A stretch of 64,000 bases of DNA, from IMG/VR virus record IMGVR_UViG_3300035183_001040, positions 1 through 64,000 of that record; one strand, 5' to 3'. Under the pieces are notes generated by a model. It had not been told where the DNA came from. It saw nothing but the letters and a program-made list of their open reading frames with translations, and searched no databases. Every line of letters begins with the position of its first letter. Positions within the stretch are counted from its first letter, which is position 1. The DNA is from a virus. Positions 5,873 through 49,965 of the stretch are shown in pieces. Made by a program: the position numbers and the translations under genes.

Positions 5873-5907
5873 TTTTGGTCCTCCTCTCTATCTGGTTGTT
5901 TCCTTTT

Positions 5908-6426
5908 TCAGATCACGATAGCGTGCGCGGTCACTCGTGCCACATACGCCGAGTCGTACGCAGTCGCCTCAGCCGAGTCATGGGTAACCACCAGCGCCTT
6001 GTCGTATGCAAGCACACGCGCCGAGTCGTACGCTCTCACCTCCGACGTGCCGTAGGCGGTCACATGCGCTGTGCCATAGGCGACGGCAACGCCGCTGCGC
6101 ACTTCATGCGTTCCGGCGCTGAATATCTGGCGCGCCGCAAGCTCGGAGTCTGTGGCGACGCGGAGCAGTCGGCACCGCCTCGCTGCCACCTTGCGACTTC
6201 GAAAGTCGTCGAAGGAGCCTACGATGCCTTCCGCTTCCGCGACGTATACCGTGCAGCCTCGCACCCACCAGATCGCCGGCGTGTCCGTGAGGTGGAATCC
6301 GTTGCGGCACGGGATCACGGGGCCGTCCACCTCGTGCCACTCGCCGGGCTTGTCAGCATCGGGCAAGGACCACTGCATCTTGCCACCATAGTGTGACCTG
6401 CCATTGACCAGAACCTTGAACAGCAT
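5908..6426 (-). CDS. Octapeptide-repeat protein with N-terminal domain
   Basis: 172 aa, AAAGGAGAA before the ATG. Residues 1-105 form an N-terminal domain (NGFHLTDTPAIWW, then VYVAEAEG) resembling the start of phage DUF7666-type proteins, in which a small domain with NGFH and a Val-rich strand precedes repeats. From about residue 106, eight-residue repeats of the form xVxAYdxA follow (AHVTAYGT, SEVRAYDS, ARVLAYDK and so on), continuing nearly to the end. The repeats suggest a beta-solenoid. The adjacent gene 6455-7096 is almost wholly made of the same repeat. Confidence 0.7.
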   Translation of the reverse strand: MLFKVLVNGRSHYGGKMQWSLPDADKPGEWHEVDGPVIPCRNGFHLTDTPAIWWVRGCTVYVAEAEGIVGSFDDFRSRKVAARRCRLLRVATDSELAARQIFSAGTHEVRSGVAVAYGTAHVTAYGTSEVRAYDSARVLAYDKALVVTHDSAEATAYDSAYVARVTAHAIVI

Positions 6427-6454
6427 CTACGAGTTTCTCCTTTCCCGGTCTGCC

Positions 6455-7096
6455 TCAATCGTTCCGCTCGACCTGCGCATCGTCATGCGTGGTCACATGC
6501 GCATTGTCGCGAGCGATGACTCGTGCAGAGTCGTGCGCGACGACCCGTGTATAGTCGTGCGCGGTCACCTCCGCTTTTCCGTACGCTGTCACCAGCGCCC
6601 AGCCGTAGGCATCTACCTGCGCATCGTCGCGTGCATCCACCTGCGCCGAGTCGTTCGCGGTTACCCGTACCAAGTCGTACGCATCCACCTGCGAATCGCC
6701 GCAGGCGATCACCTGCGCCCTCCCGTACGCGTCCACGCTCGCCCAGTCGCAGGCGGTCACCTGCGCGTCGTACGCGGTCACCTGTACATAATCGTGTGCT
6801 GTCACCCTCGCCCAATCGTAAGCGAACACCTGCGCCGAGTAGTGCGCGTCCACCTGCGCTGAGTCATGCGCATCTACATGCACAGCGCCTCGAACGGTAG
6901 CCTGCGCCGCGTCTAAGACGGTCACTCGCGCCCTCCCGTACGCGATCACTTCAGCCCGCCCGTACGCGATAACACGCGCTGAGTCGTACGCTGTCACATG
7001 CGCATCGTAGCGGGCGATCACCTCCGCCGTGCCTCGGGCGATGACAGTACCCGCGTGCACTTCGTGAGTTCCTAAATAGAATTCCCGCGTGCTCAT
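6455..7096 (-). CDS. Octapeptide-repeat beta-solenoid-like protein
   Basis: 213 aa. ATG with GGAGAGGAAGGC upstream, overlapping the previous stop (ATGA). After about 24 residues the whole protein consists of some 23 tandem octapeptides of consensus [RQEH]-V-x-A-[YH]-[DG]-x-A, for example HVTAYDSA, RVIAYGRA, QVDAHDSA and EVTAHDYT. Val and Ala occupy fixed alternate positions, as expected for an inward-facing strand of a beta-solenoid. The DNA has a 24-base period. The role is unknown; the repeat is shared with the C-terminal part of the next gene, suggesting expansion by slippage and duplication. Confidence 0.75.
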   Translation of the reverse strand: MSTREFYLGTHEVHAGTVIARGTAEVIARYDAHVTAYDSARVIAYGRAEVIAYGRARVTVLDAAQATVRGAVHVDAHDSAQVDAHYSAQVFAYDWARVTAHDYVQVTAYDAQVTACDWASVDAYGRAQVIACGDSQVDAYDLVRVTANDSAQVDARDDAQVDAYGWALVTAYGKAEVTAHDYTRVVAHDSARVIARDNAHVTTHDDAQVERND

Positions 7097-47493: not shown

Positions 47494-47886
47494 TTAGTCT
47501 GGCACCTCTTCGAGGGCGACGCCCGCGATTTTCATCTTCTCGATGGCTCCCGAGCCGTACAAGGAGTCGCTCACGATGGCGCCTGCGCCGAGTTGAATCA
47601 TGCTCGCGCCCCAACTGATCGTTGTTGAGACCTTCACGCGGTACTTCTTCGCGGTCGCGGACTCCGCGGCTGCGGCCATCTTGCCAGGCGGCGGAAGGAC
47701 GGGTTCGACGGCCAGCTCGGCTTTCTTTTCTTGCGCGTCGTCGTCTCCGACCTTCTGCGGCGCAGCGCTGGGCTTCTGCGGCAGCGAGGAAGGCGGAGGC
47801 GCCTCGGGATTGTCATCCTGCGTGAGCGCCAAGGGGACGTCGAGCTTTGCAGATTCGAGCGGGTCTACGGATTTCTTCGAGGCCAT
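47494..47886 (-). CDS. Unknown protein, Pro/Glu-rich
   Basis: 130 aa, ATG after GGAGAGCAAG. Residues 1-75 are Pro/Lys/Glu-rich and likely disordered; residues 78-130 are a small beta domain (KYRVKVSTTISWGASMIQLG, GAIVSDSLYGSGAIEKMKIA). It begins immediately after the structured non-coding stretch. No family recognised. Confidence 0.55.
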   Translation of the reverse strand: MASKKSVDPLESAKLDVPLALTQDDNPEAPPPSSLPQKPSAAPQKVGDDDAQEKKAELAVEPVLPPPGKMAAAAESATAKKYRVKVSTTISWGASMIQLGAGAIVSDSLYGSGAIEKMKIAGVALEEVPD

Positions 47887-47905
47887 CTTGCTCTCCGTGG
47901 GACGG

Positions 47906-48550
47906 GGAAAAGTAGCGGCGACGCCGACCGCGGTTCAAACCAGGCTAAAAGCCCAAGGTTTACGAGCAGGGCTAGGCTCGATGCTGGGCGAAACCGCGGT
48001 CGGCGTCAGACGTGACCAGGCGCACCGAAACGGGCGAACCGTATCGGAAGCGGTGGTGCGTCCTTGGCACGGAGGCCTTCCGAAGAAGGCTCGCAGCCAT
48101 GCCGCCGAAAGCGGCCGCGGTTCCATGGCCCGAAGGCCAGGGTTTGCGACCGCTTACGGTACCGAGCCGCGAAACGCGAGGTTTCGCGCGAGGCTCTGCC
48201 GAAAAGACCTCGACCGAAGAGGTCTTCGGCGAATGCGCCCGGCACCTACAACCCGGCGGCTGGCAAGTGCTCACGGCCGAGGCCGAAAGCGAGCCGCAGG
48301 GGTGGCAGAGAGCACCTTTGCCGAGGTGCTCTGAAGGTTGGCGCGAAGAAGCCAAACCACTGCCGAAAAAAGCACTGACGGCAACAGGAGCACGTTGCCG
48401 CGTGCAAGGCCGCCCGAACGAATCGGAGCAGCCCCGGCGCAAACCGGCCGAGTCGAACGGCCAGGTCCGCAGGAAAAGAGCAGACCCCCGCGCAGCCCTC
48501 TGAGGAGAGGAGGAAGCTGAACTCGAAGGCTGCGCGGGAGTCTGCGCCAT
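47906..48550 (-). ncRNA. Candidate large structured RNA downstream of the capsid gene
   Basis: About 650 bases between the capsid stop and the next gene. They contain no frame with plausible codon use and a chain of strong hairpins: a 16-bp perfect pair 47920-47935/47992-48007 enclosing shorter stems; 48072-48092; 48126-48139; 48164-48196; 48198-48230 (12 bp, bulged); 48309-48332 (9 bp); 48390-48405; and an 18-bp pair 48480-48497/48528-48545. On the minus strand the loops at 48072-48092 and 48126-48139 are TTCG closed by C-G, the stable cUUCGg tetraloop. The one non-Watson-Crick position of the 18-bp stem is a U-G wobble on the minus strand and would be A-C on the other, so the minus strand is the likely transcript. 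Confidence 0.65.
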
Positions 48551-48555
48551 CGTGG

Positions 48556-49965
48556 TCACTCGCCGTGCTCGATGACGGCGAAGCGCTTGTAGCGGGCAAC
48601 ACCGCCCGTCGCACCGTCGGTGCGCAAGGGCCAGTCGCCGATGAACTTCCACGCCGTCGACACCATGTCCTGCAGGCGGTTGAGCGGTGCGCGGATGATG
48701 AGTTGAATGCGGTCGCTCATCACCTCGATGCCGTTGTTGACGATGTGCGGGTCCCCGACCTTGCCGAGCAACCCTGCTTCCGTGAGCAGGTTGGACAGGT
48801 CGGAGTAGTACTCGTAGATGCCGCCCTGCGCCGTGAACAGGATGCGGTGCACCTTGACGTTGTTCACGTTGTAGAGTTCGCCCGCGAACGGGTCGCGCTT
48901 GTCGAAGACCTGCGTTGCGTTGCTGCCGCCGTCTCCGACCACCGTACCGGCGCCGCCGACCGGGGCTCGGCTGTTGCGGAAGAAGACGGTGTTGAGAAGC
49001 TCGCCGATCGCGAACTTCTTGTACATGTAGTAGTCGGGCAGCGCGGTGAGCAGACGCTGGAACTCGTTGTCCTGGTATATCTTCGCCTGCGAGACCGGGT
49101 CGAGGTGCGCGTGGAAGCGTCCGTCTGGGTGCTCGGGCACGTTCTGTTGCCAGAAGTACGACACCGCGGCTCGAATGTCCGCGAGCGTTGGCAACGAGGA
49201 GCTCAAGATGGTGTCGATGCTGTTGCCACCGCTGACGCGGAAAATCTCCGTCCGGTCGACGGAGAAGACGTAGGCGCGGTCCGCGACGGTGACGGCAGCG
49301 TCGAGCGTGAGCGTTCCCGGCCCCGTCTCGTCTCCGGGCGTGTCCGGCGTGAAGCCGATGACGTTGCGCGTCACATCGTTGCCGCCCGAGAACGTGTGGA
49401 TGAGCAGCGGGTTGGTCGAGGAGACGAAATCGTACTGAACCGGCGAGCCGCCTGCGAGGTTCGGGTTGCGCGCGCGCGTGAAGCCGTTGAGGCGCTTGAC
49501 GCGAAGCGTGGTTGTGGCGGCTTGCGCACCGTCCGCCACCGTCCAGCCGCTCAGCGCTGCGTTGTACATCTGGTCTCGGACCTTGGTGTCGAGCGCGAGC
49601 GCGGCCATGAGGCCGAGTTGGTGGCAGTTGCGCAGGAACAGGTTCGCGATCGCCACCATGCTGGTCGGCATGTGCGTGTCGATCGCGCCGGCGTACTGCT
49701 GAAGCTGCGCGGTCCACTGCTCCTGCGGGAACGACGCGACGGCGGGCTCGTCGCCGGGTTTGAGCGGCGAGGCATCGACGGTCATGAGACCGGCGGCGGT
49801 GAACACCATGGTGTCACCGACACCTGCCGGCCACGGCTGCGGGGTTGCCTCGCCCCGGAACAGAATGCGCGGAAACAGCGCATCGTGGAACGCGCGCTCC
49901 AGGATGTTCTGCTGAACCAGCGCACGAATCTGAGGCGCTTGGAGAATGACGGAAAAGTCGGGCAT
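48556..49965 (-). CDS. Major capsid protein (HK97 fold)
   Basis: 469 aa; ATG after GAAGGATCG. The order scaffold-like gene, this gene, then connector genes is the usual phage head order. Features include an N-terminal helix (QQNILERAFHDALFPRIL), PQEQWTAQLQQYAGAIDT (E-loop region), SYFWQQNVPEHPDGRFHAHL and SRAPVGGAGTVVGDGG, with a C-terminal EVMSDRIQLIIRAPLNRLQD. It builds the shell. A promoter-like sequence lies directly upstream and a long structured RNA downstream, as could be expected for the most abundant late protein. Confidence 0.85.
   Translation of the reverse strand: MPDFSVILQAPQIRALVQQNILERAFHDALFPRILFRGEATPQPWPAGVGDTMVFTAAGLMTVDASPLKPGDEPAVASFPQEQWTAQLQQYAGAIDTHMPTSMVAIANLFLRNCHQLGLMAALALDTKVRDQMYNAALSGWTVADGAQAATTTLRVKRLNGFTRARNPNLAGGSPVQYDFVSSTNPLLIHTFSGGNDVTRNVIGFTPDTPGDETGPGTLTLDAAVTVADRAYVFSVDRTEIFRVSGGNSIDTILSSSLPTLADIRAAVSYFWQQNVPEHPDGRFHAHLDPVSQAKIYQDNEFQRLLTALPDYYMYKKFAIGELLNTVFFRNSRAPVGGAGTVVGDGGSNATQVFDKRDPFAGELYNVNNVKVHRILFTAQGGIYEYYSDLSNLLTEAGLLGKVGDPHIVNNGIEVMSDRIQLIIRAPLNRLQDMVSTAWKFIGDWPLRTDGATGGVARYKRFAVIEHGE

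Follow-up and report, generated by a model that had tools for sequence, protein, structure and literature searches.

Large structured RNAs encoded by phages are, to our knowledge, few, and their functions are not established. The cage formed by the GOLLD RNA is a 14-mer. Two large structured phage RNAs have recently been proved to be RNA cages: GOLLD and ROOL both form cages made of RNA only, and a covarying loop-junction pairing of ROOL proved to be intermolecular (PMC12286853). In the OLE RNA, the palindrome of a kissing loop switches between GGCC and GAUC (PMC12286853). In this work we analyzed positions 1 to 64,000 of the IMG/VR virus record IMGVR_UViG_3300035183_001040 (the window, 64,000 nucleotides (nt) of a full record of 74,760 bases), in which 669 bases on the minus strand (48555-47887) separate the stop codon of the major capsid gene from the next gene, referred to here as nxt. 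Sequence comparison among related phages indicates that a conserved, structured RNA of about 640 nt that codes for no protein is encoded at 47908-48547 (minus strand), and that this predicted RNA is present in dozens of uncultured bacterial viruses. On balance we lean toward the view that a lineage of tailed phages carries a new large structured noncoding RNA family, whose members would be stable, trans-acting RNAs of late infection.

The minus-strand fold has a free energy of -362 kcal/mol, against -288 +/- 6 kcal/mol for shuffled sequences (z -11.7), and none of 20 shuffles was as stable; the plus-strand fold of the gap gives z -7.4. The consecutive stem-loops on which a first-pass annotation, made from the letters alone, had based a large minus-strand RNA at 47906-48550 are therefore present far beyond chance, and the limits that it gave agree to within a few bases with those of the RNA deduced from homologues.

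Relatives were collected in two ways, by similarity of the capsid protein and by DNA patterns independent of the capsid. Capsid similarity supplied 13 IMG/VR loci and capsid alignment 80; at the same place many loci carry 400-680 nt of noncoding sequence and others a gap of 75-150 nt, and the homologue gaps are interrupted by stop codons in the frames checked. The initial comparison revealed a 33-nt element common to otherwise dissimilar gaps, and a first pattern derived from this element was scanned across all of IMG/VR without reference to the capsid. All 28 matching contigs carry the motif here, on the capsid strand, with the capsid gene and the downstream genes adjoining it as far as the contigs reach. 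Looser patterns added more loci at the same site and a few chance matches in unrelated DNA (L048, L050, L052, L053, L139 and L144); four bacterial matches to the core pattern, three in Niabella and one in Alloyangia, lack the genes of the capsid cassette and were likewise rejected as chance. Because the capsid-independent scan matched only there, the motif is confined to a single phage lineage and a single locus. Nucleotide similarity against 50,697 phage records gave nothing useful. The closest cultured capsid relatives (Streptomyces phage Kromp and Komagataeibacter phages) are only 26-29% identical, and inspection of Kromp and phiKX1 found no comparable gap.

The RNA contains a conserved 55-nt core. 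In 31 sequences the core opens with an outer stem that varies freely around the nearly invariant GCAAACC...GGAACCGC; there follow GC, the internal loop AAA/AACC, CC-GG, a C.Y mismatch, and finally a short, variable stem capped by a small loop. Twelve of the 16 core pairs have changed on both sides, and the covariation score is 0.490, against 0.125 for shuffled and at most 0.152 for slid controls. Applied to 56 chosen loci, a covariance model made from the cores of the family detected 45 cores (43 distinct); in the alignment of the 43 distinct cores, which was fitted to this model, 151 cells show double changes against a shuffled mean of 57, other measures of the count type being less decisive. 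More divergent cores in L074 and L069/L086 were recognized by eye only.

A structure-aware progressive aligner was written for the whole RNA. Plain RNAalifold of the whole alignment recovered, in its printed part, the core alone; because variable stem lengths defeat a fold of the whole alignment, the elements were tested singly, by comparing each sequence's own partner strand with partners swapped from other sequences. In the first pseudoknot (PK1) a 5' hairpin pairs through its loop (UGGCGU type) with ACGCCA, a joining strand that belongs to the next stem, and in 22 sequences at fixed alignment columns none of 2000 permutations was as good. Among 17 hexamers chosen by eye, with L027 ambiguous and L099 apparently lacking the hairpin, 89% of the PK1 cells pair and double changes occur at five of the six pairs (variants UGGUGU/ACACCA, UGCUGU/ACAGCA, UGGAGU/ACUCCA, and UUGUGU/ACGCAA). 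For the closing helix, the long 3' stem, and the second pseudoknot (PK2) the segments were placed manually, which limits the permutation tests to judging the choice of partner, and the statistics ignore kinship among the sequences: the closing helix, formed by a post-core strand (GGYRGC type) and the strand directly before the 3' U-run, was equaled in 0 of 5000 permutations (z -6.2, 32 sequences); the duplex of the long 3' stem has an energy of -23.6 kcal/mol with its own partner and -14.7 kcal/mol with swapped partners (z -12.4; an apical stem within it gives z -9.4); and PK2, a compact H-type pseudoknot in which a 5' strand CCC or CGAGC pairs with a loop GGG or GCUCG, was equaled by one of 20000 permutations (z 4.4, 26 sequences). 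A complex secondary structure is thus preserved across many phages by compensatory change, strong for five separate elements; homologues lacking such change, which the first-pass annotation had named as its refutation, are not what was found, and the earlier proposal of a large structured noncoding RNA is borne out.

In 32 RNAs the capsid strand holds 67 copies of the hexamer CUUCGG, i.e., the stable UUCG tetraloop plus its closing pair, and the opposite strand a single copy, against 10 expected by shuffling; the RNA therefore lies on the capsid-coding strand, in agreement with the first-pass choice of the minus strand. Of the two minus-strand cUUCGg tetraloops that it had listed, one lies in the core and the other at 48075-48090; a third CUUCGG (48206-48224) sits inside a 7-nt loop. 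The single U-G pair that it took as the sign of the strand does exist in the 18-bp stem, where it is weak strand evidence, and its 16-bp outer pair is perfect but encloses only the 3' domain of the RNA. Folding energies of 32 homologues do not discriminate between the strands (mean z -6.0 and -6.5), and core counts of G-U versus A-C (13 versus 19, with noisy outer pairs) do not settle the question. Toward the ends of the RNA, 34 of 35 loci that carry it show strong local folding past the capsid stop, and a GC hairpin likewise occupies the short gap of relatives without it; a U-run follows the 3' tail in 22 of 32 homologues. Beyond the 3' tail, and outside the conserved fold, comes the ribosome site of the next gene. 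A simple intrinsic terminator was rejected as an explanation of the gap, since it covers only the first 75 nt or so and the remainder has a conserved structure of its own. In L079 and L091 the capsid gene is parted from the RNA by textbook-looking terminator hairpins (GC stem and U-run), and the RNA would there need read-through or a separate promoter.

The capsid tree places the RNA in deep branches and the phages without it in several clades, with RNA status unassigned for many rows and several branches weak; an old RNA with losses is the simplest reading of this distribution. The RNA-less clades retain merely the 75-150 nt gap, and no core was found elsewhere in 12 contigs of RNA-less relatives, which may be fragments. 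By eye, L057, L076, and L078 seem to lack the core and to have in their gaps only the 3' domain, which contains a CGAG/CUCG pseudoknot; this suggests that the domain can stand alone. L066 (5902-6230) carries a shortened RNA with about 104 nt 5' of the core and an intact 3' half, and the L014 gap carries a degenerate core-like stem (GCGCAACCCC...GGGUUCGCGCC), missed by the core model, with a PK2-like 3' part.

When the window and 12 homologous loci were searched against Rfam at the gathering threshold, no match was found, and at E<=10 the region 47600-48800 gave no match to GOLLD, ROOL, HEARO, or introns; sub-threshold matches (microRNA-like, snoRNA, sRNA) were discarded as chance. Searches of the open-access literature turned up no description of such an RNA, one elsewhere being possible. 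The RNA is most likely analogous to GOLLD and ROOL yet unrelated to them, in keeping with the first-pass remark that it is comparable to both and is neither. It resembles ROOL in being phage-encoded, in size (659 nt in a ROOL example), in its many stems, and in a covarying loop-junction pairing, here PK1, for which sequence cannot separate intra- from intermolecular contacts; because PK1 has the form of the intermolecular pairing of ROOL, oligomer formation is plausible by analogy. ROOL is often found near tRNA islands, whereas the RNA described here lies behind the capsid gene, in a window in which ARAGORN finds neither tRNA nor tmRNA. As in GOLLD, some members retain mainly 3' parts (L057, L066, L076, and L078); unlike GOLLD, the RNA has no Rfam match, a different core motif, and no tRNA association. 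OLE is also large and ornate with loop contacts, and its palindrome switching is resembled by the GGUC/GAUC variation in one loop here, where the contact is hypothetical; OLE is bacterial, not of phage origin, and the present RNA has no Rfam match. The hairpin concerned, with a YGGUC (once GAUC) loop, recurs immediately 5' of the core in the window (48198-48231) and in homologues, and its loop tetranucleotide is self-complementary and could thus be a kissing loop. With at least 43 distinct cores, a fixed address next to the capsid gene, natural RNA-less relatives, and strong covariation, the family is a ready comparative system, suited to exploring the role of large phage RNAs and to finding out whether unrelated families also use loop-junction pairings and assemble from RNA alone.

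In the trans-acting reading that we favor, the RNA would be co-transcribed with the capsid gene late in infection, with its 5' end at the GC hairpin past the capsid stop and its 3' end at the U-run past the closing helix. It would accumulate stably and act in trans as a folded object, by analogy with the role supposed for GOLLD and ROOL. Contacts within or between molecules would be made through the invariant core loop and the loop-strand pairings, and these might assemble a homo-oligomer or a scaffold required at roughly capsid-level amounts. Several observations weigh against such an RNA. A sigma-70-like promoter was searched for and none was found, so that a separate transcript is an assumption; the RNA-less clades indicate that, at least in them, the RNA can be dispensed with; variation in the YGGUC loop and the AACC internal loop is too slight for covariation to bear on a proposed contact, whether of the YGGUC loop with the core AACC or with itself; and a fixed position between two genes also fits a cis-acting element.

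Possible, if the less convincing account, is that the RNA acts in cis in the late operon, as a structured spacer that never functions as a free RNA and whose role is to shield the 3' end of the capsid mRNA, to attenuate read-through, or otherwise to set how much capsid is made relative to the next proteins. The place of the RNA is fixed within the late structural operon, always between the capsid and next-gene cassettes and on their strand, and both the GC hairpin shared by phages with and without the RNA and the frequent U-run past the closing helix speak for a cis element. However, a terminator requires 30-50 nt and the RNA-less relatives cope with their short gaps, two pseudoknots and a near-invariant internal loop spread over about 500 nt far exceed attenuation needs, and the ribosome site of the next gene is left outside the fold. 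In L009 and L049 inserted HNH genes lie between the RNA and its capsid neighbor, and L018 has a different downstream gene. We therefore favor a trans-acting RNA: attenuation would need far less structure than is conserved here, and that structure withstands being parted from each of its two neighbors.

A more specific form of the trans-acting proposal, i.e., a new phage RNA class present at capsid-like levels late in infection whose loop-junction and palindromic-loop contacts would tie copies together as a defined RNA particle or incorporate the RNA into the head, is doubtful as a whole. A packaging-motor or virion-assembly RNA like the phi29 pRNA would be a special case of the trans-acting RNA and seems unlikely: the RNA lies near capsid and connector genes, a link to the head by neighborhood only, and the loop pairings are of a kind able to oligomerize, but pRNA is far smaller, the RNA here has no Rfam match and no demonstrated motor association, and several clades of close relatives lack it, with no core elsewhere in the possibly fragmentary contigs searched. 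An intron (group I/II) in degenerate or unusual form, or a HEARO-like mobile RNA associated with HNH genes, is very improbable. Those RNAs are also structured and sometimes adjoin HNH genes, the size suits an intron, and an HNH gene adjoins the RNA in L009 (at least one gene away in L049 and L066); yet the RNA always occupies one site between two complete genes, most loci have no HNH gene, the tree fits an old trait with losses, and neither intron nor HEARO models matched in the Rfam searches. Least credible is an element acting as DNA, such as a packaging site or a replication origin with inverted repeats, for although the folds of both strands are equally stable, the CUUCGG strand bias of 67 to 1 speaks against it, as does the covariation of the pseudoknots, which a cruciform of DNA would not produce.

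The features of the region are listed in Table 1. The arms of the 5' stem (48480-48500 and 48525-48545) are 21 nt each and 90% complementary. PK1 is supported across homologues, though its register in the window (GUGCUC/GAGCAC) is uncertain.

Table 1. Genes and predicted RNA parts between and around the capsid gene and nxt in the window
Feature	Position	Strand	Basis or remark
Major capsid protein gene, upstream	48556-49965	-	PHROG 1357 major head protein, E 2.7e-8
Downstream gene nxt, small late protein	47494-47886	-	Occurs in relatives with and without the RNA
Inferred RNA extent	47908-48547	-	Capsid-to-next-gene gap, conserved 3' tail and U-run; 5' end is the higher coordinate
5' hairpin directly past capsid stop, 18-21 bp, one U-G, then UCUUUU	48480-48545	-	
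5'-domain hairpin	48439-48470	-	Minimum free energy (MFE) fold
5'-domain hairpin	48408-48434	-	MFE fold
Hairpin PA	48372-48405	-	Loop strand GUGCUC (48388-48393), candidate 5' half of PK1
Joining strand GAGCAC, candidate 3' half of PK1	48326-48331	-	Rivaled by a local hairpin
Hairpin with loop UUCGGUC, immediately 5' of core	48198-48231	-	YGGUC-type loop common to many homologues
Conserved core, with covarying outer and tetraloop stems	48105-48160	-	Covariance model R1 match, 63 bits, E 7e-13 (model built from the same family), and covariation
Post-core strand GGCGGC, 5' half of closing helix for the RNA 3' half	48101-48106	-	0/5000 permutations
cUUCGg hairpin GCCUUC-UUCG-GAAGGC	48075-48090	-	
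Hairpin linking core and 3'-domain regions	48020-48061	-	MFE fold
5' arm of 16-bp 3'-domain stem	47992-48007	-	Family stem, own versus swapped z -12.4
CGAGC, 5' strand of helix S1 of H-type pseudoknot PK2	47976-47980	-	
PK2 hairpin GCCC-[UGCUCGUAAACCUU]-GGGC	47951-47972	-	Loop GCUCG (47963-47967) pairs with CGAGC
3' arm of 16-bp 3'-domain stem	47920-47935	-	
3' tail: GCCGC (partner of post-core strand), then UACUUUU	47908-47919	-	

HNH endonuclease genes were located at L009:3906-4526, L049:4230-5576 (minus strand), and L066:6662-7447, those of L009 and L049 between the capsid gene and the RNA; a dCTP-deaminase-like gene is also inserted in L049. The HNH insertions lie near the RNA or past the next gene, and the RNA is retained. 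In L018 an open reading frame of 337 amino acids without a Pfam match (5878-6909) takes the place of the usual next gene after the RNA. The nxt protein of the window has neither a Pfam nor a PHROG match. It has a DPxEAAK-like N-terminal motif and a Pro/Ala-rich middle, and its C-terminus (YGxxGI...GVxLE) is conserved across many relatives.
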